DNA of 64,000 nucleotides from Thalassovita mediterranea (GTDB lineage Bacteria; Pseudomonadota; Alphaproteobacteria; Caulobacterales; Hyphomonadaceae): the NCBI GenBank assembly GCA_019448215.1, contig CP080408.1:682001-746000 (forward strand), in the 5' to 3' direction. The translations under genes were made by a program, and so were the position numbers. This document shows, piece by piece, positions 4,120-30,338 of this stretch (position 1 is its first letter; each line of letters begins with the position of its first letter). Below the pieces are notes generated by a model. The model saw only the letters and a list, made by a program, of their open reading frames with translations. It was not told where the DNA came from and searched no databases.

Positions 4120-4121
4120 CA

Positions 4122-11054: not shown

Positions 11055-11804
11055 ATGGCAGACCTCGCAAGCAGGTTATTCGATTTTACCGGCAAAACGG
11101 TTCTGGTGACCGGCGGCAGCCGCGGGCTTGGCTACCAGATGGTGAAAGCGTTTGCCGAACAGGGCGCCGATACGATCATCGTCAGCCGCAAGCTCGATGC
11201 GTGTGAAAAGGTCGCCGAGGAGGTCCGCGGTCTCGGACGCAAGGCTCTGGCCCTGAGCGCCCATTGCGGCAAATGGGAAGAGATCGATCCCATGATCGAA
11301 AAGGCCTATGAGGCATTCGGCAAAATTGACATCCTCATCAACAATGCGGGCATGAGCCCGCGCGTGCCGAGCCACGAGGTCGAGGAAAGCCTGTTCGACA
11401 GCGTGCTGAACCTCAACTTCAAGGGCCCGTTCCGGATCGGCGCGAAGATCGGAAAGCGCATGGCGGACGGCGATGGCGGTTCAATCATCAACATCTCCTC
11501 GACCGGCGCGCTCATGCCGCTGCCGCAAGTTGTCCCCTATAGCGGGGCGAAGGCCGCGCTGAACGCGATGACGGTCTCCTTTGCCCGCGAATACGGGCCG
11601 AAGGTGCGCGTGAATACAATCTCTGCCGGCCCGTTCCTGACCGACATTTCGAAGGCGTGGCCCGAAGAGATGCGCCAGTCGGCTGACAATGCGCTTGGCC
11701 GTCCCGGCGAGCCGGAAGAGATCGTCACCGCCGCGCTTTGCCTGGCAAGCGATGCGTCGAGCTTCACGACGGGGACGATCCTGCGCGTCGACGGCGGCAG
11801 CTAG
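11055..11804 (+). CDS. Short-chain dehydrogenase/reductase (SDR family)
   Basis: A 249-residue classical SDR oxidoreductase. The cofactor motif TGGSRGLG lies at residues 16-23, NNAG near 95, the catalytic Ser in ISSTG, and the YSGAK active-site Tyr/Lys pair near 155-159. The conserved C-terminal PGEPEEI and DGGS ending are present. A GGGAGA ribosome binding site precedes the ATG. Members of this shape include gluconate 5-dehydrogenase-like and 3-oxoacyl reductase-like enzymes; the substrate is unknown. It is followed 80 bases later by the Nramp-like transporter and may be cotranscribed. Confidence 0.85.
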   Translation: MADLASRLFDFTGKTVLVTGGSRGLGYQMVKAFAEQGADTIIVSRKLDACEKVAEEVRGLGRKALALSAHCGKWEEIDPMIEKAYEAFGKIDILINNAGMSPRVPSHEVEESLFDSVLNLNFKGPFRIGAKIGKRMADGDGGSIINISSTGALMPLPQVVPYSGAKAALNAMTVSFAREYGPKVRVNTISAGPFLTDISKAWPEEMRQSADNALGRPGEPEEIVTAALCLASDASSFTTGTILRVDGGS

Positions 11805-11884
11805 GACAGGCCGGCACCCCAGCCCATATCGACAAATCAGGCTGCTCCGTGCAGGCTCCGCGCCATGACGCTGCGGGGCACGAC

Positions 11885-16000: not shown

Positions 16001-16677
16001 TGCTCTACGCGTTCCGCTGTCTCGTGGCAGATGAATTGCCGCTCAATGAGGGCTGCATGCGGCCGCTGGAGCTGGTGATACCGGAAGGGTCTTTCCTGTC
16101 TCCCTCGCATGGCGCGGCCGTCGTGGCAGGCAATACTGAAGTCAGCCAGGCGGTCTGCAATGTATTGTTCGGCGCCATGGGCGTCAGCGCGGCGGCGCAA
16201 GGCACGATGAACAATCTGCTCTTCGGCAATGATGACTACCAATATTACGAGACGATCTGCGGCGGCAGCGGTGCAGGCCCCGGCTTTGACGGCACATCCG
16301 GCGTGCATACGCACATGACGAATACCCGCATCACCGATCCGGAAATCATGGAGATGACCTACCCGCTGCGCCTTGAGCGCTTTTCGTTGCGTCGCGGCTC
16401 CGGCGGAAATGGCGAACGCACTGGCGGCGACGGCGTCGTGCGTACCATTCGCGCGCTGTCGGAGACAGTCTGCACGCTCGTCTCTTCGTCGCGCCAGACC
16501 GCGCCTTTCGGCCTCGAAGGGGGCGGGGATGCAAGCTGCGGACGCCAATGGATCGTGCGGGCCGACGGTCGGCGCGAGCCTATTGATGGCATCGTCACTG
16601 AAGACATGCACGCCGGCGATACGATCACGATCGAGACACCGGGCGGCGGCGGCTTTGGCCGCCTCAAGCAGAATTGA
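13093..16677 (+). CDS. oplA: 5-oxoprolinase (fused hydantoinase A and B domains)
   Basis: At 1194 residues this is the full-length, single-chain ATP-dependent 5-oxoprolinase type. The N-terminal HyuA-like part starts with [14 protein letters not shown], the ATP/phosphate loop of the actin-like fold; [12 protein letters not shown] near residue 280 is the second such loop. From about residue 690 the HyuB-like half follows, with [21 protein letters not shown], and a glycine-rich C-terminus (GGGGFG). The enzyme hydrolyses 5-oxo-L-proline to glutamate with ATP. Bacterial members may act on hydantoins or other lactams. Close coupling to the Nramp-like transporter suggests uptake plus catabolism of one compound. 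Confidence 0.87.
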
Positions 16678-16865: not shown

Positions 16866-17321
16866 ATGGCAGAACTCAAGGTCAACGGGCAAACCGTAAG
16901 CGTCGACGCAGAAGAGAACACACCGCTTCTCTGGGTGCTGCGTGAACATCTGGGGCTGACTGGCGCCAAATATGGATGCGGTATCGCCCAGTGCGGCACC
17001 TGCACGATCCACATTGATGGCCAGCCTGTCCGCTCCTGTACCTACCCGGTCGGGGCGCTCTCGGGCGAAGAAGAAATCACCACGATTGAGGGCCTGTCCG
17101 AAGATGGCAGCCACCCTGTGCAGCAGGCATGGGTCGAATTGGACATTCCTCAGTGCGGTTACTGCCAGCCCGGCATGATCATGGCGGTCGCAGGCCTCCT
17201 CAATAACACGCCGGACCCGACCGATGAGGACATCGACGCGCAGGTCACGAATATCTGCCGCTGCGGGACGCTCGCACGGGTGCGCAAGGGCATCCACCTC
17301 GCCAAGACGAAAAAAGCCTGA
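16866..17321 (+). CDS. [2Fe-2S] subunit of xanthine-oxidase-family molybdenum hydroxylase (IorA-like)
   Basis: A 151-residue iron-sulfur subunit. The plant-type cluster uses Cys38, Cys43, Cys46 and Cys58 (CGIAQCGTC plus a later C). The second cluster uses Cys97, Cys100, Cys131 and Cys133 (CGYC and CRCG). This is the two-cluster subunit of isoquinoline oxidoreductase or aldehyde dehydrogenase type enzymes, which lack the FAD subunit. The ATG at 16866 is preceded by GAGGAGG; an upstream ATG at 16833 is less likely. It passes electrons from the molybdenum centre to an acceptor, probably the nearby cytochrome c. The large subunit starts 14 bases downstream. Confidence 0.9.
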
Positions 17322-17335
17322 GGGAGGGCTGACAC

Positions 17336-19540
17336 ATGGCTGATACGATCAAGCTCTCACGCCGCAATTTCATCATCGGCACCGGCGCTGCCGGTCTGAC
17401 CATCGGCATTCTGGCCTCCTGCTCGAACAACAACGAAGACGGCGGCGAAGCAGACCAGGCCGCAAATGCCGAACCAAACCCCGAAGTGAATGCGTGGGTG
17501 CATATCGCCCCCGATGATACGGTCACGATCCGAATTGCCCGCTCTGAAATGGGCCAGGGCACGCTGACCGGTCTCGCCCAGCTTGTCGCCGACGAACTCG
17601 ACTGCGACTGGGACAAGGTCACCACAGAATATCCGACACCCGGCGAAAACCTCGCCCGTGACCGCGTCTGGCGCGACTTCTCCACCGGCGGCTCTCGCGG
17701 CATCCGTGGCAGCGTCGACTATGTCCGCGAAGGCGGCGCCGTTGCGCGTGCCATGCTGATCCAGGCCGCTGCGAACCAGTGGGAAGTGCCTGTCGGCGAA
17801 TGCTCTGTCGAGAAGGGTGTCATCACTCACGGGCCGAGCGGCAATACGCTGCGCTATGGCGAAGTGGCAGAGGCCGCCAGCGCCCTCACCCCGCCAACCG
17901 GCGTGCAGGTGAAAGACCCGTCCGAGTGGAAAATTATCGGCCAGCCGGTCAAACGTCTCGATACCGCCGACAAGGTCACCGGCGCCCAGAAGTATGGCGC
18001 TGACCTCCAGATGGAGGGCATGCTGAATGCGGCCATCAAACAGGCTCCGAAGCGCGGCGGCACGCTCGCCTCCTTCGATGCTGATGCCGTCATGTCGATG
18101 CCGGGCGTTCGCAAGGTGGTGCAGGTCGACGATACATCCGTCGCCGTTGTCGCCGACAGATGGTGGCAAGCGAAGACCGCGCTCGACGCCCTCCCCGTCG
18201 AATGGACGGACGGCGAAGGCGCTGACTATTCAAGCGCCGCCTTTGAAACAGAGCTTGAAAACGCGCTGACCGCAGATGACGCGTCCGTCGCCAATATGAG
18301 CGGCGAAGTCGACGCAGCCTTCGCCAACGCGGCCCAGACCGTCGAAGCCACCTATCGCGTCCCGCATCAGAACCACGCCTGTATGGAGCCGATGAACGCG
18401 ACGGCCATCTGGACTGAGGACAAGTGCGAAGTCTGGTGCCCGACACAGAATGGCGAGGCCGCGCTTGGTGCCGCCTCTGAAGCGGCAGGCCTGCCGATTG
18501 AGCAGTGCGACGTCTATAAGCTCCTGCTCGGTGGCGGCTTCGGCCGCCGCGGCATGAGCGACTATGTGAGCCAGGTCGTGAAAATCGCCAAGGAGATGCC
18601 CGGTACGCCGATCAAACTTCTCTGGACGCGCGAAGAAGACATGCAGCATGGCTTCTATCACCCGACCACGCGGGCACGGTGTGAAGGCGCACTGGACGCC
18701 GATGGCAATCTCACCGCCATCAAGATCCGCATTGCGGGCCAGTCCATCCTTGCGGGTCTGATGCCACAGGCACTGCAGAACGGCATGGACCCGTTTGCCT
18801 TCCAGGGCCTCCTGCCAAGTGGCCTCGATGAGCGCGTCGAGGACCAGACGCTGAAATACACCTTCCCGGCCCTCAAGTTCGACCATGCCATGCGGAACCC
18901 GCCTGTGCGTCCGGGCTTCTGGCGCGGCGTGAACGCGAACCAGAACGCGGTCTACCTTGAATGCTTCATGGACGAGCTTGCCCATGCAGCCGGAAAGGAC
19001 CCTCTGGAGTTCCGCCTCGCCTATATGGGTGACGCGCCAGAGCTGGCCGCCGTCCTGCGCGCCGCTGCGGAAGGGTCTGGCTGGGGCAACGACGATGGCA
19101 AGTCACGCGGTCTTTGCGCCTTCTACTCGTTCGGCGCCTACACCGCCGCATGCGCCGAAGTGACGGTGGACGATGCGGGCCAGCTGAAGATCCACCGCAT
19201 CGTTGCCGCGACCGACCCGGGCTACGCCGTCAATCCGCAGCAGGTCGATGCGCAGGTCGCTGGCTCCTTCGTCTACGGTCTCTCGGCAGCACTGTTCGAG
19301 GAGATCACCTTCGAGAATGGTGAGGTGCAGGAGCGCAACTTCGACACCTATAACTCCATGCGCCTTCGGGACATGCCGGAAGTCGAAACGATTGTCATGC
19401 CATCGGGCGGCTTCTGGGGCGGTGTCGGTGAGCCGACCATCGCCGTGGCCGCGCCAGCCGTGCTGAATGCGATCTATGCAGCCACCGGCAAGCGGATCCG
19501 CAACCTGCCGATCAAGGATCAGAGCCTGAGGGACGCGTGA
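17336..19540 (+). CDS. Molybdenum-binding large subunit of xanthine-oxidase-family hydroxylase (IorB-like), Tat-exported
   Basis: A 734-residue catalytic subunit. The N-terminus has a twin-arginine signal (LSRRNFIIGTGAAG), so the enzyme is folded and exported to the periplasm. The molybdopterin-binding region includes GGGFGRRG near residue 400; GGVGEPTIAVAAPA near the C-terminus carries the conserved catalytic Glu of the family. Length and organisation match IorB-like aldehyde or N-heterocycle hydroxylases that use a cytosine-dinucleotide cofactor. Substrate is unknown. It overlaps the following cytochrome gene by 4 bases. The XdhC-MocA fusion and moa genes downstream supply its cofactor. Confidence 0.88.
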   Translation: MADTIKLSRRNFIIGTGAAGLTIGILASCSNNNEDGGEADQAANAEPNPEVNAWVHIAPDDTVTIRIARSEMGQGTLTGLAQLVADELDCDWDKVTTEYPTPGENLARDRVWRDFSTGGSRGIRGSVDYVREGGAVARAMLIQAAANQWEVPVGECSVEKGVITHGPSGNTLRYGEVAEAASALTPPTGVQVKDPSEWKIIGQPVKRLDTADKVTGAQKYGADLQMEGMLNAAIKQAPKRGGTLASFDADAVMSMPGVRKVVQVDDTSVAVVADRWWQAKTALDALPVEWTDGEGADYSSAAFETELENALTADDASVANMSGEVDAAFANAAQTVEATYRVPHQNHACMEPMNATAIWTEDKCEVWCPTQNGEAALGAASEAAGLPIEQCDVYKLLLGGGFGRRGMSDYVSQVVKIAKEMPGTPIKLLWTREEDMQHGFYHPTTRARCEGALDADGNLTAIKIRIAGQSILAGLMPQALQNGMDPFAFQGLLPSGLDERVEDQTLKYTFPALKFDHAMRNPPVRPGFWRGVNANQNAVYLECFMDELAHAAGKDPLEFRLAYMGDAPELAAVLRAAAEGSGWGNDDGKSRGLCAFYSFGAYTAACAEVTVDDAGQLKIHRIVAATDPGYAVNPQQVDAQVAGSFVYGLSAALFEEITFENGEVQERNFDTYNSMRLRDMPEVETIVMPSGGFWGGVGEPTIAVAAPAVLNAIYAATGKRIRNLPIKDQSLRDA

Positions 19541-19905
19541 GCCCGAAAGCTCTGAAATCAATCTCCATCGCCGCCACCAGTGCGGCGATGGCTTTTACTT
19601 TCGCCGGATGCAGCGCTGGAGACACCCCCGCTGAAACGCCAGCACAGGCGGCTGAGACCTCCATAGCCAATGGCGACATGTTGAGAGGCCAGACGCTCGC
19701 CCTGACTTGTTCTGGCTGCCATGGCGGGTCGGGTGATGCGATTCCAGACTATGATGACCTCGACCGCGCAACGCTTGAGGCGCGCCTCCTTGCTTACAAG
19801 ACGGAGGAAGATGGCACGACAGTCATGCACCGTCTGATGCGTGGCTATGACGAAGCCGACATTGCCGCCGTCGCCGCCTATCTGACTACGCCGGAGGAGG
19901 GGTGA
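19537..19905 (+). CDS. c-type cytochrome (FccA-like, or electron acceptor of the Mo-hydroxylase)
   Basis: A 122-residue monoheme cytochrome c. It starts with GTG inside the end of the previous gene (GTGA overlap). The N-terminal segment is hydrophobic and ends in a lipobox-like TFAGC (Cys25), so it may be membrane-anchored. The heme site is CSGCH (residues 58-62); a downstream Met in TTVMHRLMRGY is the probable second ligand. It may be the third subunit of the Mo-hydroxylase (such enzymes often carry a cytochrome c), or the cytochrome partner of the adjacent flavoprotein as in flavocytochrome c sulfide dehydrogenase. Position between the two genes fits both. Confidence 0.82.
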   Translation: MSPKALKSISIAATSAAMAFTFAGCSAGDTPAETPAQAAETSIANGDMLRGQTLALTCSGCHGGSGDAIPDYDDLDRATLEARLLAYKTEEDGTTVMHRLMRGYDEADIAAVAAYLTTPEEG

Positions 19906-21179
19906 TGGCCTGGTCCCCAAAACGACGAGATGTGCTTGCTGGTCTTGCAGGAACAGCGTCACTGCCGCTTCTCGCGTCGCCAGCAATTGCGCAGGCCCAA
20001 CCAAAGGTCGTTATTGTGGGTGGCGGCTTTGGCGGGGCAGCCGCCGCGCGCTTTGTGAAGACCTATGTGCCCGGTGCCTCAGTCTCGCTGATCGAGCCGC
20101 AGGCGCGCTACACTGCCTGCCCGTTCAGCAACCTCGTCATCGCAGGGCTTCGGAGTCTGGAGGCGCAGCAGTTTGGCTATGAAGGCCTCAAGGCCCTCGG
20201 CATCAAGGTCATTGGTGACAGGGCGGATGATGTGGACGCGGCGGGCCGGACGGTCACGCTCGGCTCCGGCGACACGCTCTCCTATGACAAGCTGATCCTG
20301 TCGCCCGGCATAGACATTCGCTGGGGCGCCCTTGAAGGCTATGACGAAGCGGCGGCGAGCATCATGCCGCATGCCTGGAAGGCCGGGCCGCAGACCTCGC
20401 TTCTGCGCGAGCAGTTGGAAGCCATGCCCGATGGCGGCACAGTCATCATGTCGGTCCCCACCGCGCCCTATCGCTGCCCGCCCGGACCCTATGAGCGCGC
20501 CAGCCTGATTGCGCATTACCTCAAGACGCAGAAACCAGCCTCGAAGCTGATCATCCTCGACGCCAAGGATGAGTTTTCAAAACAGCCACTCTTCCTTGAG
20601 GCATGGGCCGAACATTATCCCGACCACCTTGAATGGATCGGCGCGAGCGACTTCGGGCGTGTGATCTCGGTTGATCCGGGCGCCATGACGCTTTCAACCG
20701 ATTTCGACACCTATGAGGCCGATGTCGCCAATGTCATTCCACCTCAGAAGGCAGGTGAGATTGCCGCTCGCGCGGGCGTCGCCGATCAGACGGGCTGGTG
20801 CCCAATCAACCCGGTCGACTTCTCCTCCACACTCCAACCCGACATCTACGTGATCGGGGACGCGACAATCGCCGCGCCAATGCCGAAATCAGCCTTCTCA
20901 GCCAATCTCCAAGCCAAGCTTTGCGCCCTGCAGATTAGGCGGGAACTGAAGGGCGAAACGCCCGCGCCGACCATCCTTGCCAATACCTGCTATTCTTATG
21001 TCACGCCGGATGCGGCGGTCTCGATCACGGGCGTCTACAGCAATGAAAGCGGACAGCTTTCCAGCATTGAAGGCTCTGGCGGCCTCAGCCCTGCCGGCCC
21101 GGCTGCCGGCGTCCGCGCTGCAGAGGCCGCCGAAGCCGAAGCCTGGTTTGAGCAGATCACGCAGCAGACCTTTGGATGA
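19905..21179 (+). CDS. Flavocytochrome c sulfide dehydrogenase-type flavoprotein (FccB/SoxF-like)
   Basis: A 424-residue FAD protein with a Tat signal (KRRDVLAGLAGTA) and an AQA-type cleavage site. The dinucleotide-binding motif is VVIVGGGFGGAAAARF. The redox cysteine region YTACPFSNLV and a second cysteine in NTCYSYVTP match the disulfide that reduces FAD in sulfide dehydrogenases. I prefer the ATG at 19905, which follows GGAGGAGG and overlaps the cytochrome stop by one base; a GTG three bases earlier is possible. In Paracoccus-type sox loci a similar gene is soxF. It should oxidise sulfide or a persulfide in the periplasm and reduce a cytochrome c. Confidence 0.87.
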   Translation: MAWSPKRRDVLAGLAGTASLPLLASPAIAQAQPKVVIVGGGFGGAAAARFVKTYVPGASVSLIEPQARYTACPFSNLVIAGLRSLEAQQFGYEGLKALGIKVIGDRADDVDAAGRTVTLGSGDTLSYDKLILSPGIDIRWGALEGYDEAAASIMPHAWKAGPQTSLLREQLEAMPDGGTVIMSVPTAPYRCPPGPYERASLIAHYLKTQKPASKLIILDAKDEFSKQPLFLEAWAEHYPDHLEWIGASDFGRVISVDPGAMTLSTDFDTYEADVANVIPPQKAGEIAARAGVADQTGWCPINPVDFSSTLQPDIYVIGDATIAAPMPKSAFSANLQAKLCALQIRRELKGETPAPTILANTCYSYVTPDAAVSITGVYSNESGQLSSIEGSGGLSPAGPAAGVRAAEAAEAEAWFEQITQQTFG

Positions 21180-21634
21180 GAACGGCGCTTCCTGTCCTCG
21201 CGATCACGCTCCTCGCCGGATGCAGCGGCGAAACAGCATCGCGGCTTGCAACACCCGTCGAGATAATAGGTGACGAGATCACGGCCCCACTTCTCGGCCT
21301 GCAAGGCGACGCGGCGCGCGGTGAAGCGGTGTTCGCAGAACGTGAGCAAGGTCACTGCGTGCTCTGCCACGCTGTTGAAGGCCTGGACGCTGAATTCCAG
21401 GGCAATGTCGGCCCCGCGCTCACCAGCGTTGGCGCCCGGCTGAGCGAAGGTCAGATCAGGCTTCGTATCGCCGACATCCAGTCCCTCTGGCCAGATACGC
21501 TTATGCCATCATATTATCGAACAGGCGGGCTGAACCAGGTTGCCCCCGCCTATGCGGGTGAGCCTGCACTGACGGCCCAACAGATCGAGGACCTCGTTGC
21601 CTACCTCGGACAACTCGACGGTGAACGCACATGA
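21176..21634 (+). CDS. soxX: SoxX, monoheme cytochrome c of SoxAX
   Basis: A 152-residue SoxX. The heme-binding site is GHCVLCH (Cys61-His65), and Met111 in DTLMPSYYR is the expected sixth heme ligand. An N-terminal signal ends in LLAGC, so it may be a lipoprotein. The surrounding phrases NVGPALTSVG and IEDLVAYLGQL are typical of SoxX. It overlaps the preceding flavoprotein and soxY by 4 bases each. It forms SoxAX with the soxA product encoded three genes later, the complex that attaches sulfur substrates to the SoxY cysteine. Confidence 0.9.
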   Translation: MRTALPVLAITLLAGCSGETASRLATPVEIIGDEITAPLLGLQGDAARGEAVFAEREQGHCVLCHAVEGLDAEFQGNVGPALTSVGARLSEGQIRLRIADIQSLWPDTLMPSYYRTGGLNQVAPAYAGEPALTAQQIEDLVAYLGQLDGERT

Positions 21635-22101
21635 AGACCCCTAGCAGACACACAGCCCTCGCAAGGCGCAGCTTTCTCCGGCTTGGGGCCGCAGGCCTCG
21701 TGGCAACCGCAGTGCCCTTGCAAGCGGCTGCCGACGCCGCAGACGCAGATGCAGCCATCCGCGAAATCTTTGGCGACAAGCCGCTCAATGAAGGGCGGGT
21801 CAGCGTGAAGCTTCCGCCGATCGCCGAAAATGGAAACTCGGTCGCGATTACTGTGGCTGCCGAAAGCCTGATGTCGCCGGACGATTATGTCCGCCGCATC
21901 GCGATCATTTCGCCTCGCAACCCGATCGCCGAGGTTGCCGTGTTCAAGCTCGGCCCGCGTGCTGGCAAGGCAGAGATTTCCACCCGCATCCGCATGGCTG
22001 GAACGCAGCGCATCCGCGCTGTCGCCGAGATGAGCGACGGCACACTCTGGCATGGCTCAGCAAGCACGGTGGTCACGCTGGCCGCCTGCCTGATCGGATA
22101 G
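21631..22101 (+). CDS. soxY: SoxY, sulfur-carrier protein with an atypical C-terminus
   Basis: A 156-residue SoxY with a Tat signal (LARRSFLRLGAAGLVA). The Ig-like body (VSVKLPPIAENGNSVAITV, then a segment with AEVAVFKLGP) is canonical. The carrier cysteine is Cys153, but the flexible GGCGG tail of characterised SoxY proteins is replaced by AACLIG, i.e. no flanking glycines and one extra bulky residue. Reading the other frames does not restore GGCGG, so a simple frameshift is not the cause. SoxZ follows after 12 bases with GGAGGG as its ribosome binding site. It should still carry sulfur adducts, but its interaction with partner active sites may differ. Confidence 0.88.
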   Translation: MKTPSRHTALARRSFLRLGAAGLVATAVPLQAAADAADADAAIREIFGDKPLNEGRVSVKLPPIAENGNSVAITVAAESLMSPDDYVRRIAIISPRNPIAEVAVFKLGPRAGKAEISTRIRMAGTQRIRAVAEMSDGTLWHGSASTVVTLAACLIG

Positions 22102-22113
22102 GAGGGCAGACCC

Positions 22114-22434
22114 ATGGCGACCATACGTATTGCAGCTCCGGACACGGCGAGCGCTGGCGAAGTCATCGAACTGAAAGCCCTCATCCAGCATCCGATGGAG
22201 ACAGGCTATCGTAGCGGCCCCGACGGCAAACGGATCGAGCGTGACATCATCGATAAATTCGAAGTCACCTATGACGGCGAAACTGTCTTCGAGGCAGACC
22301 TCCAACCCGGCATCGCCGCCAACCCGATCTTCACCTTCTACACCCGCGCAACCGCCTCAGGCCCGATTGTCTTCAAGTGGACAGACCAGGACGGCGAAAG
22401 CTGGTCAGAGACCCACGACCTTACCGTGGAATGA
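22114..22434 (+). CDS. soxZ: SoxZ, partner of the SoxY sulfur carrier
   Basis: A 106-residue SoxZ of normal length, without its own signal peptide; in studied systems it is co-exported with SoxY through Tat. Typical segments are the N-terminal MATIRIAAPDTASAGEVIEL, IQHPMETGYR and the C-terminal IVFKWTDQDG. It forms the SoxYZ heterodimer. The stop overlaps the soxA start by 4 bases. No unusual substitution was noticed. Confidence 0.92.
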   Translation: MATIRIAAPDTASAGEVIELKALIQHPMETGYRSGPDGKRIERDIIDKFEVTYDGETVFEADLQPGIAANPIFTFYTRATASGPIVFKWTDQDGESWSETHDLTVE

Positions 22435-23219
22435 GGGCGGGGCTCGCACTCCTTTCGGCGTTTTGCCTGACTGCCTGCGGAGATGTCGTGGCCGATACGA
22501 AATCGCCCCCGGCTCCGCCTCGGCCCCTGCAATCTGGATATGAATTCCTGCAGCCGCAGACGCAGGCCTTGCAGGATGATGATTTTGCCAATCCGGGCTT
22601 TCTCTGGATCGACCGGGGCGAAGCCTTGTTCACTGAAGCTGCCGCTCCTGCGGAGGCCTGTAGCGATTGCCACACCGACACGTCATTGTCGTTAGCAGGC
22701 GCTGCTGCCCACTACCCCAAGATCGACGCCGAAAGCGGCGACCTCATCAATCTGGAGGGGCGAATAAACCTCTGCCGAACGCGTCATCAGGACGAGGCGC
22801 CGCTCGAATATGAGAGCGATGAGCTTCTCTCGCTGACGGCCTATGTCGCCTACCTGTCGCGCGGCACGCCCGTTTCTGTCGACATCGAAGGCACCGCCGC
22901 AGACTGGTATGCGCGCGGACGCGACTATTTCGAAACACGGCGCGGCCAGTTCAATCTCTCCTGCACCCAGTGCCATGATGACAATTGGGGAAAGAAACTG
23001 CGCGGCGATACGATTAGTCAGGGGCACGGAACGGGATTTCCCGCCTACCGGCTTGAATGGCAGTCGCTCGGCTCACTCCACCGGCGCCTGCGCGACTGCG
23101 ATGCAGGTGTTCGGGCAGAGCCGCGACCATACGGGTCGGACGATTATCTCGCCGTCGAACTCTATCTCGCAAAGCGCGCCGAAGGCCTTGCGATCGAAAC
23201 CCCCGGGGTCCGCCGATGA
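22431..23219 (+). CDS. soxA: SoxA, diheme cytochrome c of SoxAX
   Basis: A 262-residue SoxA. Both heme sites are present: CSDCH (77-81) and CTQCH (178-182), so this is the diheme form. Cys115 (INLCR) is in the place of a distal heme ligand. Cys223 (RRLRDCDAG, followed by VRAEPRPYGSDDY) is the catalytic cysteine that becomes a cysteine persulfide. The start at 22431 overlaps soxZ (ATGA) and gives a short lipoprotein-like signal (LLSAFCLTAC). With SoxX it should oxidatively conjugate a sulfur compound to SoxY. All catalytic residues are intact although soxB is not in the window. Confidence 0.92.
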   Translation: MRAGLALLSAFCLTACGDVVADTKSPPAPPRPLQSGYEFLQPQTQALQDDDFANPGFLWIDRGEALFTEAAAPAEACSDCHTDTSLSLAGAAAHYPKIDAESGDLINLEGRINLCRTRHQDEAPLEYESDELLSLTAYVAYLSRGTPVSVDIEGTAADWYARGRDYFETRRGQFNLSCTQCHDDNWGKKLRGDTISQGHGTGFPAYRLEWQSLGSLHRRLRDCDAGVRAEPRPYGSDDYLAVELYLAKRAEGLAIETPGVRR

Positions 23220-23560
23220 GCGGTAAAGCAAAGCTCAGCGTTCGTATCGACCTGCCCAATGGCGGGCGCTTTGGCCCCGGTAAGGCCACCCTCCTGCGCG
23301 CCATCGCAGAGCATGGCTCCATACGCAAAGCCGCAGCCGCTTTGGGCATGTCCTACCCACGCGCGCTCAAGCTGATTGATGAGATGAATGGCGACTTCGC
23401 CGCGCCGCTCATCGCATCCACCCATGGCGGCGCCAGCGGTGGTGGCTCCGAACTCACGCCGACCGGCGAAAACGTCCTCGGGCTCTATGCCGAGATAACG
23501 GACGCCGCCAGCACAGCGTCATCTTCAGCTATAGGCAAGCTTTGCAGCCTGCAGGAATAG
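23216..23560 (+). CDS. ModE-like DNA-binding regulator (winged helix only)
   Basis: A 114-residue protein equal to the N-terminal DNA-binding domain of ModE, with the helix-turn-helix IRKAAAALGMSYPRALKLIDEMN and a preceding wing. It lacks the molbindin (molybdate-binding) domains of full-length ModE. The start at 23216 overlaps soxA by 4 bases. It sits between the sox and cofactor genes, and a perfect inverted repeat follows its stop codon. It probably regulates this operon according to molybdenum or cofactor supply, but with no ligand domain it may instead sense another protein. Confidence 0.82.
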   Translation: MSGKAKLSVRIDLPNGGRFGPGKATLLRAIAEHGSIRKAAAALGMSYPRALKLIDEMNGDFAAPLIASTHGGASGGGSELTPTGENVLGLYAEITDAASTASSSAIGKLCSLQE

Positions 23561-23574
23561 AAGTTTGCTGGCAT

Positions 23575-23598
23575 CGTTCTAAATGATGATTTAGAACG
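23575..23598. promoter_or_regulatory. Perfect inverted repeat, candidate ModE operator
   Basis: CGTTCTAAA, six bases (TGATGA), then TTTAGAACG: a 9+9 perfect dyad in the 47-base gap between the ModE-like gene and the XdhC-MocA gene. CGTT/AACG at the outer ends with AT-rich arms and a six-base spacer resembles the layout of ModE boxes in enterobacteria (from memory). It may drive a separate, Mo-regulated transcript for the cofactor genes. Confidence 0.65.
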
Positions 23599-23607
23599 GC
23601 AGGTATC

Positions 23608-25107
23608 GTGACGATGCAGCAGACTTATCCAGAACATCCTGAAGACGTGCTCAGCCAATGGCTGGACTGGCATGAGGCGGGTCCTGTGGCGCTCGTTGTT
23701 GTCACCGGGATCGAGGGCGGCGCAGTGCGCGCACCGGGCGCCCTGATGGCGGTCCGCGAAGACGGCGCCTTGGCGGGCTACATCTCTGGCGGCTGTATCG
23801 ACTCCGATGTCGCGCTGCAGGCGCAGAACGCATTGCGCGCGGGGAAGGCCAAACAGCTCCGCTATGGCGCAGGCTCCCCATTCACAGACCTTCCTCTGCC
23901 CTGCGGCGGGGCAATCGAAGTCACCATTATCCCGGATGCAGACCTGCATGAGATCATGACGGTTCGCGATCAGCTAAGCGCGCGAAAGGCCGCGCAGCTA
24001 AGCCTTGAGGCACTTGGTGACTTCAAGCCTCACTACGTTCCCAAGCCTCGTCTTCGTATTGCCGGGCGCGGAGCCGACTGCCTTGCCCTTGCCCGCGTTG
24101 CAAGCGCCGCTGGACTGGATGTCCGGCTACAACTGCGCGACGGCGAAGACGTGGCTGCAGCGGCTGCGCAAGGCTTTGCCGACGTGACGGCGCTTGAGAC
24201 CCCTTCAGATATTTCCGCCGCGCATGACGATGAATGGACCGCCTTCATCCTCATGTTTCACGACACGCATTGGGAAGGCCCGCTTCTGAAGCAAGCGCTC
24301 GAAGGCCCTGCTTTCTATGTCGGCGCTGTCGGCAGCCGGAAAACGCATGCCCGGCGCACTGAGGCGCTCAAAGCAGACGGTATCGACGAGGTAGCGATCG
24401 CCCGCATCCACGGCCCCATCGGCCTTATCCCCTCCATGCGCGACGCATCCATGCTCGCGATCTCGGTCCTCGCAGAAGTCGTTGCGAGCTATCACGATAC
24501 GCTTCGCCAGCCCTTCGCCGAAACGGCCATCATCCTGCTCGCAGCAGGCCAGTCGAAGCGTTTTGAGCGCGGAGACAAACTGCTGGCCGAGCTTGAGGGG
24601 AAACCCATCCTTGGACACGTTGCCGGATTGCTCGCGGATCAGGAAGTGGCTGCCCGGATTGCCGTGACCGGGCCAAACGATAACGCCCGCGCAGCCGCGC
24701 TCAAAGAGCAAGGCTGGGAGGTGATTGAGAACCCCGACGCCGCTGATGGACAGGCGACCTCACTCAGCACTGGCATCCGCGCCGCGAAGGCTTCGGGCGC
24801 AAAATCGGCGCTCATCCTGCTGGGCGACATGCCCCACATCGGTGAGCCCCACCTTCTCGCGTTGCAGACGGGACTCGCCCGAGGCCGCCGGGCCGTCATG
24901 AGCCAGACGGGCGACATCCTCTGTCCTCCCGCGCTCTTCCACGAAACGGCCTTCGACGACCTGATGGCGCTCTCTGGTGATGCAGGCGCAAAGTCGCTGT
25001 TCGCCAAGCTGCCCAATACCGCCCTGGTCGACCTCTCACCCGACAAAGCGCTCGATATCGACACGCTAGCCGATCTCGAACGCGCGAAAGGACTGACGCA
25101 TGCCTGA
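23608..25107 (+). CDS. XdhC-MocA fusion: Mo-cofactor insertion protein and molybdopterin cytidylyltransferase
   Basis: A 499-residue two-domain protein. Residues 1 to about 300 match XdhC/CoxI: the [14 protein letters not shown] motif, a CGGAIEVTI motif, and a Rossmann-like part with [13 protein letters not shown]. From about residue 310 a MobA/MocA-like nucleotidyltransferase follows, with [10 protein letters not shown] (nucleotide loop) and [10 protein letters not shown]. XdhC binds and matures Moco for hydroxylases; MocA adds CMP to make molybdopterin cytosine dinucleotide, the form used by IorAB-type enzymes. The fusion thus serves the Mo-hydroxylase of the same operon. Start is GTG 23608 or ATG 23614. 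Confidence 0.85.
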
Positions 25108-26131
25108 CGGACATACCGCCCTGAAGCCTGCACCGCTGACCGACCGCTTCGGCCGGGAGATCAGCTATCTGCGTCTCTCGGTCACAGACCGCTGCGACCT
25201 TCGATGCACCTATTGCATGGCAGAACACATGACCTTCCTGCCGAAGAAGGATCTGCTCAGCCTGGAAGAGCTGCAGACCGTTGCGGACGCGTTCATCCGG
25301 CGCGGTGTCCGCAAGATCCGCATCACGGGCGGCGAACCCCTCGTGCGCAAGGACATTATGGGCCTGTTCGAAGGGCTCGGCGACAGGCTGGGATCCGGCC
25401 TTGATGAGCTGACGCTGACGACGAACGCGACGCAGCTCGAAACCCACGCCGAAGCCCTGGTTAAGGCCGGGGTGAAACGCGTGAACATCTCGCTCGACAC
25501 GCTCGACCCGGACATGTTTCGCGAGATCACGCGCCGCGGCGACTATGAGAAGGTCATGCGCGGCATTGAAGCTGGCGCGGCAGCAGGCCTCAAGATCAAG
25601 ATCAACACGGTCGCCCTCCGCCACCAGAACGCGGGCGAGATTCCGCACATGGTCGAATGGGCGCACGCCCATGGCTATGACATGACGCTGATCGAGGTCA
25701 TGCCCCTCGGGATTACCGGCGAAGACCGGTATGACCAGTACATTCCCCTCTTCGACATCCGTGATGAGTTGGAGCGGCGCTGGACCCTCACGCCCGAAGA
25801 TGCCCGCGACACGAATGGCGGCCCGTCCCGCTATGTGCGCGTCGCGGAAACCGGCGGTCGGCTTGGCTTCATCACGCCGCTGACCAACAATTTCTGCGCA
25901 GGCTGCAACCGCGTTCGGGTCACCTGTACGGGCCGCATCTATATGTGCCTTGGCCAGGACGATCATGTCGATCTTCGTGCCGCGCTGCGCGAAAGCAGCG
26001 ACCCGCAGGCCGCGCTCGACGAAGCGCTGGACCGGGCGCTCATCGCGAAACCGGAGCGCCATGATTTCGAGATCAACAAGCGCGGTCAGGGCCCGGCGCT
26101 CGACCGTCACATGTCCGTGACAGGGGGCTGA
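25100..26131 (+). CDS. moaA: GTP 3',8-cyclase MoaA
   Basis: A 343-residue radical SAM enzyme. The SAM cluster is CDLRCTYC (Cys32, Cys36, Cys39), the second iron-sulfur site is [12 protein letters not shown] in the C-terminal part, and the chain ends with the functional Gly-Gly (SVTGG). It converts GTP to 3',8-cyclo-GTP, the first step of molybdenum-cofactor synthesis. It overlaps the XdhC-MocA gene by 8 bases and precedes moaD by 4. Confidence 0.95.
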
Positions 26132-26135
26132 GGCG

Positions 26136-26384
26136 ATGGCCGACATCCTCTACTTTGGACGCCTTGGAGACGTCGCTGGCACAGGGGCTGAAAAGCTCGA
26201 CATACCCGCCGCCATTACAGACACAGCCGCACTCCGCCGCTGGCTCGACGCTGAAAAATCAGCGGGCGGCGCCTTTCTGGAAGCGAGCGTCCGGCTCGCC
26301 GTGAACAGCGAAATCGTCGTCGATCCTCACCCCATTTCCCCGTCCGATGAGATCGCCTTCATGCCGCCTGTCGGTGGCGGCTGA
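26136..26384 (+). CDS. moaD: Molybdopterin synthase small subunit MoaD
   Basis: An 82-residue ubiquitin-like protein. The C-terminus is FMPPVGGG: the terminal Gly-Gly is thiocarboxylated by MoeB in known systems. The NSEIV and SDEIAFMPPV phrases are standard. It donates sulfur to precursor Z with MoaE. It lies between moaA and moaE with small gaps. Confidence 0.9.
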   Translation: MADILYFGRLGDVAGTGAEKLDIPAAITDTAALRRWLDAEKSAGGAFLEASVRLAVNSEIVVDPHPISPSDEIAFMPPVGGG

Positions 26385-26394
26385 CCTGCCAGCG

Positions 26395-26880
26395 ATGATC
26401 ACGCTCACGCCTTCCCCTTTCAGCCCATCAAAGGCGCTCGCCACCTTTGAGAAAGAGGCACGCGGCGCTGGCGCGATCGTAAGCTTTACCGGCCTTGTCC
26501 GTGACCGGGCGGGCGACGCGGACGTCGAAGGCCTGCACCTTCAGGCCTATTCGCCAATGACGGAGAACGGCATCGAGAAAGCCGCCGCAGATGCCCGCCA
26601 GCGCTGGCCGCTGACGGCGCTGCGCATCATCCACCGCATTGGCGACATGGGCCCGTTTGAGCCCATCGTCTTTGTTGCCACCGCCTCTGCGCACAGGCGA
26701 GCCGCATTCGAGGCGGCAGACTTCCTGATGGATTACCTCAAGACAGAAGCCGTCTTCTGGAAAAAAGAACTTACTGAAACTGGCAGCCGCTGGATCGAAC
26801 CGCGCGCCGAAGACTATAGCGACAGCACCCGCTGGACGCAGACTGATACGGAGACTGACCGCAATGCACGGCATAAATGA
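26395..26880 (+). CDS. moaE: Molybdopterin synthase large subunit MoaE
   Basis: A 161-residue MoaE. Recognisable segments are GAIVSFTGLVRD, the HRIGDMGPFEPIVFVATASAHR stretch (its His, Gly and Ala signature) and the KTEAVFWKKE motif with active-site lysines. The ATG at 26395 lies ten bases after moaD; an upstream in-frame start would overlap moaD heavily. It forms molybdopterin synthase with MoaD. Its end overlaps moaB by 17 bases. Confidence 0.92.
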   Translation: MITLTPSPFSPSKALATFEKEARGAGAIVSFTGLVRDRAGDADVEGLHLQAYSPMTENGIEKAAADARQRWPLTALRIIHRIGDMGPFEPIVFVATASAHRRAAFEAADFLMDYLKTEAVFWKKELTETGSRWIEPRAEDYSDSTRWTQTDTETDRNARHK

Positions 26881-27409
26881 AAGCCTCGACTTCCATCCGG
26901 TACGCATCGCCGTACTGGTGATGAGCGACACAAGAACCCTTGAGACCGACACGTCCGGCCTCACCCTCGCGAGACGCATCGAGGACGCCGGTCACATCCT
27001 CGCTGACCGCAAGATCGTTCCAGACGACAAGGCTGCAATTCGCGCGCAGGTTTCGGCCTGGATCGCCGATCCTGAGGTCGACGTCGTGATCACATCCGGC
27101 GGTACGGGTCTGACGGGCCGGGACGTCACGCCTGAAGCCGTCACGCCCCTCTTCGACAAGATCATCGATGGCTTCTCGGTCATCTTCCATCAGGTGAGCT
27201 ATCAGAGTGTTGGCCTCTCGACGCTGCAGTCGCGCGCGATTGCGGGCCTCGCTAGCGGCACCTTCGTGTTCTGCCTGCCGGGCTCGAACGGTGCGGTGAA
27301 GGATGGCTGGGACAAGGTTATCTCGCACCAGCTCGACAGCCGTCACAAGCCTTGCAACCTCGTTGAACTGATGCCCCGCCTGATGGAGCATATGGGGCAT
27401 TCACATTGA
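26864..27409 (+). CDS. moaB: Molybdenum cofactor biosynthesis protein MoaB
   Basis: A 181-residue MoaB/MogA-like protein. The molybdopterin-binding segments are [19 protein letters not shown] and [15 protein letters not shown]. It adenylates molybdopterin before metal insertion. It overlaps moaE by 17 bases and moaC by 4 (TTGA), consistent with translational coupling. Confidence 0.92.
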
Positions 27410-27888
27410 GCGGCCTCACACATATCGGGCCTGACGGGCGCGCCCGCATGGTCGATGTCGGCGACAAGGACGTCACCGAACGCGTCGCCCTCGCCCATGG
27501 CCGCGTTCACATGCAGCCCGAAACGCTAGAACTCGCCATTGGCCGCGACACCAAGAAAGGCGACCCGATCGCCATCGCTGAACTTGCCGGCATCATGGCG
27601 GCCAAACGTACTTCAGACCTGATCCCGCTGTGCCATCCGTTGCCCCTCTCCTCGGTAAAGGTAGAGATCGAACCGGACACAGAGGCGAACGCACTCCTCG
27701 TCACGGCGAAGGTGAAGACCAGCGGGCGCACCGGCGTCGAGATGGAGGCGCTGACAGCTGTTTCAGCTGCCTGCCTCACCCTCTATGACATGCTGAAAGC
27801 AGTCGACAAGGCGATGCGGATCGACGCGGTCGAACTTCTGGAAAAGACAGGCGGCAAGTCTGGCGACTACCGGAAAGCAGGCACATGA
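27406..27888 (+). CDS. moaC: Cyclic pyranopterin monophosphate synthase MoaC
   Basis: A 160-residue MoaC starting with TTG inside the moaB stop. Hallmarks are [33 protein letters not shown] (the CHP catalytic region) and [20 protein letters not shown]. It acts after MoaA to make cyclic pyranopterin monophosphate. No ATG is available at a suitable place, which supports the TTG start. It overlaps moeA by 4 bases. Confidence 0.93.
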
Positions 27889-29084
27889 GCGGCCTTATCA
27901 GTGTTGCTGACGCGCTGGATGCACTCGCGCAGAATGCCCTGCCCATGTGCGCTGAGACTGTCGCCATTGAGCAGGCGCATGGCCGCCAGCTGGCCGAAGC
28001 CGTCACGGCGCGCGTCAGCCGCCCACCTGCCGATATGTCCGCCATGGACGGCTATGCCGTTCGCCTTGAGGATGTCCGCAAGGCCGGGGCTCGCCTGAGT
28101 GTTATCGGCGAAGCGCCAGCGGGCGCCCCGTTTGTGCAAACGCTCGGAAAGGGGCAGGCTGTCCGAATCTTCACGGGCGGCGAAATCCCTGTAGGCGCTG
28201 ATCACATCGTCATCCAAGAGGACACCTCCCGATCAGGCGATGAGATCACCTGTCATGAGGCCTACGACGCGCCCCAATTCATCCGGAAGGCCGGCCGCGA
28301 TTTTCACGAAGGCGACACGCTTCTGGAAGACGGCGCCATACTCGGCGCAGGCGAACTCGGGCTGCTCGCAGCTGGCAACATAGCCGAAGTGAAAGTGCGC
28401 CGCCGCCTTCGCGTCGGCATCCTTGCGAACGGCAATGAGCTGAAGCCCCCGGGTAGCGAACTGAAGCGCGGTGAGATCGTGAATTCAAACCCCGTCGCGC
28501 TCGCAGAACTTGTCCGATCCTGGGGCGGAGACCCCGTAGATCTCGGCATCGCAGAAGACACGCTGGACGCGATCTCTGAGCGGATCGAAAGCGCGGGCGA
28601 CATCGACATCTTCCTACCCGTCGGCGGCGCTTCCGTCGGCGATCATGACCTTATGCGCCCTGCCTTTGCCGCGGCTGACTTCACGCCTGTTTTCGAGAAG
28701 ATAGCGGTGCGCCCCGGCAAGCCGACCTGGTTTTCAACGCGCGGCGACACCCGCGTGCTCGGCCTGCCTGGTAACCCGGCTTCTGCACTGGTCTGCGCGC
28801 AGCTTTTCCTGAAGCCGCTGATCACCGGCCAACGCCACAGCCTCATCAAGGCGAGCCTTGCCTGCGACCTAGAAGCTAACGGACCACGGGAGCACTATAT
28901 GCGCGCCTTCGCGGCTTTCACCGTTGATGGCGGTTTGAGCGTCGATCCGGCGCCCGATCAGGACAGTTCGCTGATCAAACCTTTCGTCACGAGCGCCGCG
29001 CTCCTGCGGCGCCTCCCGAACGCGCCAGAAAAAAAGCGCGGCGAGCTGGAGGACATCATCCTGACCAGCCTGCCGCGCCTTTAA
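27885..29084 (+). CDS. moeA: Molybdopterin molybdenumtransferase MoeA
   Basis: A 399-residue MoeA with the expected four domains: N-terminal lasso ([13 protein letters not shown]), the [16 protein letters not shown] segment, the central MogA-like domain ([38 protein letters not shown]), and the C-terminal beta-domain. It inserts molybdate into adenylylated molybdopterin. It is the last gene of the operon and ends 20 bases from a convergent cytochrome gene. No clear terminator is visible in that gap. Confidence 0.93.
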
Positions 29085-29104: not shown

Positions 29105-29650
29105 TTATTCCGGGGTGTAGCCCGTCTCGCTCATCACATAGGCGATGATGGCGGCGCGCTGGTCCTCGCGCGGCACACCCGCAAAACTCATGCGGTTGCC
29201 CGGCAGGAAGTTGCGCGGGCTGGCAAGCCACTGGTCGAGCTGCTCAGGCGTCCATTCGAAATCGGCGTCCTGCAGAGCTTTTGAGTAATCGAAGCCTTCA
29301 TGCTCACCGACCTTGCGGTCAAACATGCCATAGAGGTTTGGACCAAGCAGCGTCGGGCCACCTTCGGTCAGCGAGTGGCAGGACGAACACTGCATGAAAA
29401 GGCGCTTGCCCGTAGCGTAATCTGCGGATGCGTATGGCTCAGGAAAGCCAGCAAACTGAGTACCTTCTTCGGCTGGGCCCGAAGCGGTCTCAACCTCTTC
29501 CGGCGCGGTCTCGGCAGGCGTTTCTGCGGTATCCGCATCCATTTCAGCCGGCGGCGTAGATGCGTCCGGAGCGGCTGGCTCTTCACTTCCGCCGCAGGCG
29601 CTGAGGCCCGCCGCAAGAAGAATGGCAATCATGCTTGTGCGTAGTGTCAT
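29105..29650 (-). CDS. Membrane-anchored c-type cytochrome (cytochrome c2-like lipoprotein)
   Basis: A 181-residue protein starting at the ATG at 29650, which follows GGGAGA. Residues 1-20 form a lipoprotein signal (LLAAGLSAC). A Pro/Ala/Glu/Thr-rich linker (about residues 20-65) precedes a class I cytochrome c domain with CSSCH and GPNLYGMF; Met in GNRMSFAG is the likely sixth ligand. This is a tethered electron carrier that could take electrons from the oxidation systems on the other strand to a terminal oxidase. It is convergent with moeA, so shared regulation is not implied. Confidence 0.85.
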   Translation of the reverse strand: MTLRTSMIAILLAAGLSACGGSEEPAAPDASTPPAEMDADTAETPAETAPEEVETASGPAEEGTQFAGFPEPYASADYATGKRLFMQCSSCHSLTEGGPTLLGPNLYGMFDRKVGEHEGFDYSKALQDADFEWTPEQLDQWLASPRNFLPGNRMSFAGVPREDQRAAIIAYVMSETGYTPE

Positions 29651-29771
29651 GGTGTCTCTCCCATCAACCTGGTCAGTTATCACCGCCTAACACTAGGCCA
29701 GCGCTCACGGCTTGCAAAAGAAAATGAGACGCAAACCGAAAAGAAATCCGCCTATTGTCCGGGATCGTCAG

Positions 29772-30338
29772 CTATTGTCCGTTTCCGACCAGCGGATCGT
29801 TCACGCCGGCAACATCGAGAATAGGTGAAGCTTCGATCTTCTCAGCGTCGAGAAGCGAAACAACGCGCAGAAGCGCAGCGGTGATGCTCGCCTGCTCCCA
29901 CTCAGCCAGCTGACCAAAGCGCGTGCGGAATGTGTCCTGCAGGAGGTCCGGAGCGCCATCGAGAGCGGCGAGGCCTTTCTCGGTCAGCTTCACCCATACG
30001 CGGCGGCGGTCAGTCTCTCCGCGTCGGCGCACGACAAGTTCCTGCTCCTGCAGCTTGTCTATCAGAATGGAAATCGTTGCCTGCTTCAGGTCGACCGCGC
30101 GGGCGAGGTCACCCGTCAGCGTTTCGCCCTGGGTGCGCAGCACTTGCAGCACCAGAAGCTGCGAGGCCGTCAGCCCCGTCTTTGTGGCCACCGCTTTGAC
30201 GTTGCTGGCGGTCGCCTTCAATACGCGCCGGAGCGCAACAAGCGCTGTTTCAGCCTGATCCTGCATGTCTTCGCTCCAGGTATCGGCATGCGCCGCAGAC
30301 AGACGCACCGACTCAAATCCTTCAGAAAGTTGCGCCAT
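29772..30338 (-). CDS. ectR: MarR-family regulator of ectoine synthesis (EctR-like)
   Basis: A 188-residue MarR winged-helix protein. The recognition region is LARAVDLKQATISILIDKLQEQELVVRRRGETDRRRVWVKL, with the MarR wing DRRR. It is divergent from ectA across a 239-base AT-rich region, the arrangement of EctR in halophilic methylotrophs, where the protein represses the ect operon. Assignment as EctR is by family and position. A dyad overlapping its own translation start suggests autoregulation. Confidence 0.8.
   Translation of the reverse strand: MAQLSEGFESVRLSAAHADTWSEDMQDQAETALVALRRVLKATASNVKAVATKTGLTASQLLVLQVLRTQGETLTGDLARAVDLKQATISILIDKLQEQELVVRRRGETDRRRVWVKLTEKGLAALDGAPDLLQDTFRTRFGQLAEWEQASITAALLRVVSLLDAEKIEASPILDVAGVNDPLVGNGQ

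Follow-up and report, generated by a model that had tools for sequence, protein, structure and literature searches.

The canonical Sox system comprises SoxXA, SoxYZ, SoxB and SoxCD, of which SoxCD is absent in truncated Sox systems. Here we describe a cluster of 16 genes, all on the + strand and running from moS to moeA, at positions 16866–29084 of a 64,000-nt stretch (hereafter the window) of the single-contig, 3.22 Mb genome of Thalassovita mediterranea. The nearest named relatives are Henriciella spp. (Hyphomonadaceae; SoxY identity 94% for H. marina and 96% for H. algicola). With the canonical system the cluster shares a SoxF-type flavoprotein besides SoxXA and SoxYZ, and the catalytic residues are conserved; unlike that system, the cluster is without SoxB, SoxC and the GGCGG arm of SoxY, and its molybdenum (Mo) enzyme is of a different family, that of xanthine oxidase (XO).

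A similar arrangement has been described in Starkeya novella, whose second sox cluster, soxX2Y2Z2A2F2 with an XO-family Mo enzyme (Snov_1982-1975), is presented as having no SoxB or SoxCD; its SoxAX and SoxYZ were undetected by proteomics, and one SoxF-like subunit was seen at a low level (PMC3797975, in the parts covered here). Matched by description, the window resembles that cluster in having soxXYZA, soxF and an XO-family Mo enzyme and no SoxB or SoxC. In S. novella, however, the second cluster stands beside a complete Sox system, whereas neither SoxB nor SoxC was found in the present genome. The parts of PMC3797975 covered discuss no arm motif, no mutual exclusion with SoxB and no wider distribution. 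A second comparable system is the quinoprotein dehydrogenase-associated carrier TIGR04557, a fused SoxYZ-like protein found with pyrroloquinoline quinone (PQQ) dehydrogenases in the ped clusters of Pseudomonas (PMC12997753, in part). There too a SoxYZ-type carrier accompanies a periplasmic dehydrogenase, one of a different kind, but that system has a fused SoxYZ and PQQ enzymes, SoxAX goes unmentioned in the parts of that paper covered, and the window SoxY (69.8 bits) and SoxZ lie far below the model's cut-off of 140.

The combination of sox genes with an XO-family Mo enzyme is therefore already in print, and the family of the SoxY arm is already in NCBIfam, as TIGR04487, which names an arm type and not a pathway. 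Searches of the open-licence literature listed no paper that gives this branch a function or describes the relation between arm and partner reported below. Partial sox clusters are easily taken for incomplete thiosulfate oxidation.

SoxY arm type and the enzyme encoded beside it

The window SoxY ends in ...VTLAACLIG, which replaces the GGCGG arm of true SoxY. Against TIGR04488, the model for GGCGG-type SoxY, it scores 104.8 bits, below the cut-off of 125; its best NCBIfam model is TIGR04487, ‘SoxY-related AACIE arm protein’, at 171.1 bits, 0.9 bit under the cut-off of 172. A preliminary description of the window, made from the sequence alone, had listed this gene as soxY; a carrier gene is indeed there, but by curated model it is not a true SoxY, and the AACLIG arm had been overlooked.

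Loci for comparison were collected by SoxY-directed searches of the family, the class, a collection of named genomes and plasmids. The 165 loci were reduced to 154 distinct ones by dropping 11 with identical SoxY ends; near copies of one genus stay in the set, and the counts are not counts of independent events. SoxY places from the class search were taken down to 83 bits, except G420:C20, and three weaker or moL-found loci (L209, L210 and L216, the last holding a SoxY fragment only) were added. Arms were classed by regular expression, an XO large subunit was counted within 3.5 kb, and SoxB near a locus was counted by a tblastn match of more than 150 bits.

Among 78 loci with an xAC arm, 68 have an XO large subunit nearby and none has SoxB. 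In 61 of the 68 it shares 55% or more identity with that of the window; in the other seven (L151, L209, L212–L215, L292) it is more distant. Ten xAC loci have neither partner: five end at a contig edge at most 2.7 kb upstream of soxY (L036, L095, L107, L132, L155), one (L146) has its moL on another contig (L220), and the remaining four belong to a GACS subtype considered below. The 71 loci with a GGC arm have SoxB in 58 cases, an XO subunit in none and neither in 13; the five loci with other arms have an XO subunit in four cases and neither in one. Across the 154 loci, then, SoxY arm type and partner, SoxB or XO-family Mo enzyme, are mutually exclusive. In the loci examined the arm thus predicts which of the two enzymes can be encoded nearby, so that a second Sox branch is easily recognized by it; genomes or metagenomes in which soxA, soxX or soxYZ are found cannot on that ground be credited with thiosulfate oxidation.

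SoxA divides in the same way. In a tree of 110 SoxA rows, the 43 rows from loci with a GGC arm and SoxB form one side of a single branch (support 97/99, and 98% of 200 bootstraps), and the other side, of 67 rows, holds all the xAC/moL rows together with the long-tailed family f82, the GACS loci and one GGC row without SoxB (L275); the tree is midpoint-rooted and leaves out 28 named loci and rows of at most 150 amino acids, and its construction drew a program warning that long branches meet. Catalytic residues are retained. The arm Cys is kept in 153 of 153 SoxY rows. It is preceded by Ala in 80 of the 81 xAC/moL rows, but by Gly in all 72 others. Where the residue is aligned, the active Cys of SoxA (60/60 xAC/moL rows), the haem and Met ligands of SoxX (71/71) and the three Cys of the flavoprotein (57/57, 58/58 and 60/60) are unsubstituted, and the haem residues of the small cytochrome c are kept in 30 of 30 aligned rows. 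In SoxA, two haem Cys columns show a single departure each (an L and an R), and a non-haem Cys shows four; its alignment also has 11–17 gaps among 77 xAC/moL rows, which are probably wrong or truncated open reading frames (ORFs). As arm, partner and SoxA split along the same line, we consider this set to be a distinct, conserved variant of Sox.

In the Hyphomonadaceae loci compared, where not cut by a contig end, moS, moL, the cytochrome and flavoprotein genes, soxX, soxY, soxZ and soxA are colinear, and since this order recurs in the related loci examined the cluster is not a chance assembly. In distant loci the usual constant part is moS, moL and soxXYZA, and soxX, soxZ and soxA were all detected in 62 of the 68 loci with both an xAC arm and moL. 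The usual core is thus moS-moL-soxX-soxY-soxZ-soxA, mostly with an FCSD-type flavoprotein and often with a small cytochrome c.

TIGR04487 matches occur in 26 of 61 genomes of this organism and its relatives: 23 of 29 in the genus (its own genome included), three of eight in the rest of the family and none of 24 in the rest of the order. In the 26 genomes of the family the matches score 148–185 bits. All 20 places in the class that exceed the TIGR04487 cut-off have an xAC arm, and among the matches listed, with two candidates scored per genome, 30 of 31 class genomes with a moL of at least 55% identity have an xAC SoxY too. A sample of 398 genomes from the phylum gave 14 with TIGR04487 over the cut-off. 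Four of these (G568, G618, G701, G776) belong to another class and have SACTE arms; in them moL, 54–57% identical to one of the moL queries, stands directly before soxX-Y-Z-A. The branch is therefore conserved mainly in Alphaproteobacteria, with these four genomes of another class in addition. Plasmids of Neorhizobium galegae and Methylobacterium sp. NMS14P also hold annotated copies, in both of which SoxY bears the product name ‘SoxY-related AACIE arm protein’.

The preliminary description had allowed for a coexpressed soxB-soxCD locus elsewhere in the genome as a refutation of its proposal. SoxB (TIGR04486) and SoxC (TIGR04555) gave no match in the genome of T. mediterranea, SoxD not being part of the search, so that the substrate of this branch could be tested in this organism without a canonical background. 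Nor does SoxB exceed its cut-off in any of the 61 genomes; weak matches among them are those of G007 and G031, both without a TIGR04487 match. Because weak matches to the SoxB model are widespread, and include 10 of 14 controls (none over the cut-off), SoxB in genomes was counted only above the cut-off. Of 40 genomes searched, 29 have an xAC SoxY; 23 of the 29 are without SoxB over the cut-off, and the remaining six have SoxB elsewhere, in five cases at a fetched GGC locus.

The cluster and its molybdenum hydroxylase

All 16 co-directional genes are present in the order first listed for them:

16866..17321, +, moS, [2Fe-2S] small subunit of the Mo hydroxylase (Fer2_2 and Fer2; a core gene in related loci)
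17336..19540, +, moL, large Mo subunit, XO family (MoCoBD_1/MoCoBD_2; 8gy3_C; motifs)
19537..19905, +, small monohaem cytochrome c (CSGCH) with a lipobox-like FAGC (Cytochrom_C; lipobox by regular expression)
19902..21179, +, FCSD/SoxF-type flavoprotein (FCSD_central, FCSD-flav_bind; 5n1t/3vrd/1fcd)
21176..21634, +, soxX, haem CVLCH, Met ligand MPSYY, lipobox-like LAGC (TIGR04485)
21631..22101, +, soxY, arm AACLIG, twin-arginine signal (TIGR04487 versus TIGR04488; sequence)
22114..22434, +, soxZ (TIGR04490)
22431..23219, +, soxA, dihaem CSDCH/CTQCH, active-site Cys LRDC, lipobox-like LTAC (TIGR04484; alignment with 1h31/2c1d); longest ORF from 22377
23216..23560, +, ModE-like DNA-binding domain protein (TIGR00637; HTH_1); longest ORF from 23057
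23608..25107, +, XdhC-MocA fusion (XdhC_CoxI, XdhC_C, NTP_transf_3; TIGR03310)
25100..26131, +, moaA (TIGR02666, 360.8 bits)
26136..26384, +, moaD (TIGR01682, 66.6 bits)
26395..26880, +, moaE, start uncertain, longest ORF from 26347 (PRK10678, 140.9 bits)
26864..27409, +, moaB (TIGR02667, 261.7 bits)
27406..27888, +, moaC (PRK09364, 230.9 bits; TIGR00581, 198.6 bits)
27885..29084, +, moeA (PRK10680, 277 bits)

With soxA, the ModE-like gene and moaE taken to start at 22431, 23216 and 26395 (start codons were checked; the choice among them is ours), 10 of the 15 junctions are overlaps of 4–17 bp and five are gaps of 4–47 bp. Consensus scans gave four promoter-like sites (2.3 expected) and five terminator-like sites (9.1 expected), none of them before moS.

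SoxX, SoxZ and SoxA exceed their NCBIfam equivalog cut-offs (78 versus 61 bits, 90.8 versus 76 and 227.3 versus 110, respectively), and SoxXA has the haems and the active-site Cys ligand of its canonical counterpart. Among solved structures the flavoprotein resembles 5n1t, 3vrd and 1fcd, flavin subunits of flavocytochrome c, and its three Cys align with Cys of 5n1t and 3vrd; in this family one of them links the FAD and the other two are redox-active. Regular expressions found lipobox-like motifs in moL, the cytochrome, SoxX and SoxA of the window. In a subset of the loci, such motifs occur in 30 of 71 moL, 31 of 44 cytochromes, 20 of 71 SoxX and 15 of 75 SoxA from distinct non-GGC loci, and in none of 25 SoxA and 22 SoxX from GGC loci.

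The Mo hydroxylase has the features of the XO family, namely PF02738, PF20256, PF01799, PF00111, a separate [2Fe-2S] subunit and the GVGEP motif, the Glu of which is catalytic in this family. The N-terminus of moL carries a twin-arginine signal (SRRNF) followed by a lipobox-like LASC. Its closest solved relative, over the full length and at 285.8 bits, is 8gy3_C, the large subunit of an aldehyde dehydrogenase from Gluconobacter that also has a cytochrome subunit; we know of no Sox linkage for that enzyme. The two differ in the active site, where one segment reads WGGVGEPTIAVA in moL and GLGEPGVTVV in 8gy3, and a second reads PPVRPGFWRGVNA and ATFRPGWLRSVSA, respectively. The pocket motifs of moL are WGGVGEPTI and RNPxVxPGFWRGV, with somewhat different rows in family f91, and the paralogues shown are mostly GEPGxPP-like. 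Residues Q82, W198, M519 and R520 occur in all 37 sox-linked moL rows and each in at most one of 18 paralogues.

In a tree of 95 moL rows, built by a quick method without bootstrap after 17 of 112 rows (near copies, fragments and distant hits) had been dropped, a clade of 62 rows with a Shimodaira–Hasegawa-like approximate likelihood ratio (SH-aLRT) support of 100 holds 49 sox-linked rows, nine without sox genes nearby, three cut by a contig end and that of G125, a genome discussed below. The nine sox-free rows, five of them from rhizobial plasmids, one from Methylosinus OB3b, two from f91 and one from G150, look like cases of loss or relocation of the sox part. Loci of this kind on rhizobial plasmids and in OB3b are L230, L232, L254, L252, L253 and L231, of which L252 and L253 carry no annotation. 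Six stand-alone members of the clade share Q82, W198, M519 and R520, except for one with Q at 519. In Sinorhizobium medicae the stand-alone enzyme is encoded beside a response regulator, an ATP-binding protein and a sorbosone-dehydrogenase-family gene, and in Methylosinus OB3b beside a multihaem cytochrome and an arylsulfatase.

MoaA, MoaB and MoaC of the molybdenum cofactor (Moco) pathway score well over their cut-offs and MoaD marginally so (66.6 versus 66.15 bits); MoaE (140.9 versus 175) and MoeA (277 versus 440) fall below theirs and are named by best hit and position. The XdhC-MocA fusion (TIGR03310, 85.8 bits, below the cut-off of 186.45) presumably combines Moco sulfuration with cytidylation, and the ModE-like protein is a short DNA-binding domain (TIGR00637, 65.1 bits, below 98.5). 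The cluster was first described as having its own Moco pathway. The genes are in the cluster, but the claim was overstated: this moaA is the genome's only one over the cut-off, and outside the cluster the genome encodes two more MoCoBD_1 (XO-family) proteins, so that the pathway is the whole cell's and not the operon's alone. Most likely the Moco genes serve the whole cell and are co-located rather than dedicated. The single PF00384 protein of the genome reads, by eye, like the complex I subunit NuoG.

The position of the Moco genes also varies. They lie downstream of the core in the window, in Hyphomonas (with moeA apart in L044) and in those named Henriciella loci whose sequence extends far enough, and upstream of it elsewhere in the genus and family (L027, L029, L045, L050 and L098 are examples); within the fetched stretch of most distant loci they were not detected, the exception being xdhC in L057. 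The comparison of neighbourhoods called for at the outset bears out the conserved association of the Mo hydroxylase with soxXYZA; Moco genes lie outside the fixed core of the set.

Possible functions of the branch

We favour, tentatively, the view that this distinct and conserved Sox branch serves a periplasmic pathway for an organosulfur or aldehyde–sulfur substrate, loaded by SoxAX, with the Mo enzyme acting on carbon. Since the active Cys of SoxA, the haem of SoxX and the carrier Cys are all kept, loading of some compound onto SoxY by SoxAX is plausible. The preliminary proposal is to that extent borne out; its further step, in which the Mo enzyme would replace SoxB/SoxCD on the same sulfur substrate, is conjectural. 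In the pathway favoured here SoxAX would attach to the arm Cys of SoxY, by oxidative coupling, a sulfur compound that is most likely an organic thiol. The Mo hydroxylase would oxidize the carbon part with water, either hydroxylating the carbon adjoining sulfur or oxidizing a released aldehyde, and the FCSD-type flavoprotein would oxidize the remaining sulfide or persulfide, electrons leaving through the haem c proteins. The flexible glycines of GGCGG might be dispensable because SoxB would never act on the arm. A stricter version, which we find questionable, has the Mo hydroxylase acting directly on a SoxY-tethered organosulfur, the carbon leaving as aldehyde or acid and a SoxY persulfide being left for the flavoprotein. 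If true, this would be C–S cleavage on a carrier, with an XO-family enzyme taking the step that SoxB performs in thiosulfate oxidation.

Several observations weigh against the favoured pathway. Those that tell most strongly against a strictly SoxY-bound substrate concern the Mo enzyme itself. Enzymes of the same clade, 58–62% identical and with the same active-site motifs, stand alone in Sinorhizobium, Rhizobium and Methylosinus, which indicates that moL can work without SoxYZ and that its substrate is not necessarily one bound to SoxY. In two families (L208/L211 and L209/L210) soxYZ is adjoined by XO enzymes from different clades (36–37% identity), and an accessory role of SoxYZ fits this at least as well as one fixed substrate does. 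In genome G125 (L217, G125:C1:2346000-2365999, 8.8–12.9 kb) the order is moS-moL-soxX-soxA, with no soxYZ between soxX and soxA. The flavoprotein is found in only 51 of the 68 loci with an xAC arm and moL. Near four xAC loci of the GACS subtype (L222, L287, L290, L294) there is no SoxB and no Mo enzyme, and the GGC loci include 13 without SoxB nearby. The flanking genes tested (amidases, a lactonase, TctA, hydrolases; Pfam on 20 proteins of eight loci, a few of them core or Moco genes) point to no sulfur substrate. Finally, the S. novella cluster is reported, in the parts of that paper covered, to be very weakly expressed on thiosulfate, glucose and methanol (PMC3797975).

The closest solved relative of moL being an aldehyde dehydrogenase large subunit (8gy3), and cytochrome-moS-moL units standing alone in rhizobia, that of S. 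medicae with its sorbosone-dehydrogenase-family neighbour among them, the operon could instead hold two independent periplasmic modules: a Mo enzyme working on free aldehyde, and SoxXYZA with the flavoprotein, whose FCSD catalytic cysteines are kept, working on sulfide or inorganic sulfur. Aldehyde and sulfur species might then be products of one upstream reaction, such as methanethiol cleavage. We consider this arrangement doubtful, as it would leave unexplained why the arm changes so strictly with the Mo enzyme. PF05694 (SBP56), the family that holds methanethiol oxidase, is not encoded in the genome of T. mediterranea, and of 385 class genomes just 30 have it (29 of them over the cut-off), few of these with an xAC arm; among genomes with the xAC/moL set it occurs in G182, G244 and G417, weakly in G146, G349 and G426, and also in G125, the genome with no soxYZ in its cluster. 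A methanethiol route via SBP56 is thus unsupported as a general partner of the set.

XO-family enzymes require a Mo=S ligand. This requirement, and the XdhC-MocA gene in the cluster, would suit a maintenance role, in which SoxAX-SoxYZ supplies sulfane sulfur to the exported Mo hydroxylase or tends its redox sites, for example by restoring the terminal sulfido ligand in the periplasm, and no growth substrate is oxidized. Periplasmic resulfuration of a Mo enzyme is to our knowledge not established, which counts against such a role; moreover, a full SoxAX with a flavoprotein seems heavy for the purpose, and the stand-alone Mo enzymes manage without SoxAX-SoxYZ. The stand-alone moL can, conversely, be seen as showing that the partner is dispensable, and together with the other XO clades linked to soxYZ with altered arms it means that a maintenance role of SoxYZ also suits the data. 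The fused SoxYZ-like carrier associated with PQQ dehydrogenases in ped clusters, as described in the parts of PMC12997753 covered, points in the same direction. On balance we regard a pure maintenance role as unlikely.

It is highly improbable that the set is a functionless second sox cluster, redundant or in decay, even though expression in S. novella is very low and its authors raise a lack of functional significance, besides other growth conditions, in the parts of their paper covered (PMC3797975), and although thiosulfate oxidation by Bradyrhizobium diazoefficiens requires soxY1 but not the second soxY gene, soxY2, which may or may not be of the xAC type (PMC5748708, in part): catalytic residues are conserved in the aligned loci, which led us to reject a vestigial cluster as the principal explanation, SoxA forms a coherent clade, and SoxB over the cut-off is missing from 23 of 29 xAC genomes and from that of T. 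mediterranea.

Variant loci and neighbouring genes

Three of the GACS loci (L287, L290, L294) have soxX and soxA, and an FCSD flavoprotein is also present in L290 and L294; a TonB receptor and a DUF3179 protein adjoin in L294. These three loci are possibly a third Sox branch. GGC-type soxYZ with neither SoxB nor a Mo enzyme nearby is seen, for example, in L160, L166, L167, L263, L270, L271 and L293, with arms that include GGCST, GGCIT, GGCSV and GGCGS. G125, whose cluster has no soxYZ, is a single-contig genome, and its genus mates G337 and G414 differ from it in this arrangement.

Three f91 rows just outside the moL clade, and the separate XO clades f82 and f129, lie beside soxYZ with altered arms. 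In f82 (L208, L211) SoxY has a long tail after the arm Cys, and the moS/moL pairs are about 36–37% identical to the window enzyme; these loci also hold a cytochrome, a flavoprotein, soxX and soxA, and L208 has two moS/moL pairs. A second moS/moL-like pair (32–34% identity) lies just upstream of the core in L080 and L089 (also numbered L037, from Henriciella pelagia, and L038, from H. mobilis), the only two species with it among the Hyphomonadaceae loci compared. In the Methylobacterium copy an mddA gene lies about 8 kb downstream of soxA, an arrangement seen in that record only.

Clustering of ORFs around 62 loci returned mostly core genes, antisense frames and Moco genes, not every cluster being annotated. 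Directly upstream of the window cluster lies a gene for a fused HyuA-HyuB hydantoinase/oxoprolinase-type protein of 1194 amino acids (window 13093–16677), a relative of which is found near five of the 62 core loci and which is therefore outside the conserved set; an Nramp-type transporter gene (window 11738–13096) overlaps it. Genes for a TonB-dependent receptor, a periplasmic binding protein and an FecCD permease follow one another at window positions 2242–5959, resembling a system for uptake of a cofactor or metal chelate. Downstream of the cluster, on the minus strand at 29105–30338, are genes for a cytochrome c and a MarR-type regulator. The best NCBIfam model of this cytochrome is cytochrome c-550 CycA, at 62.6 bits and below the cut-off of 240, and it is a possible electron acceptor.

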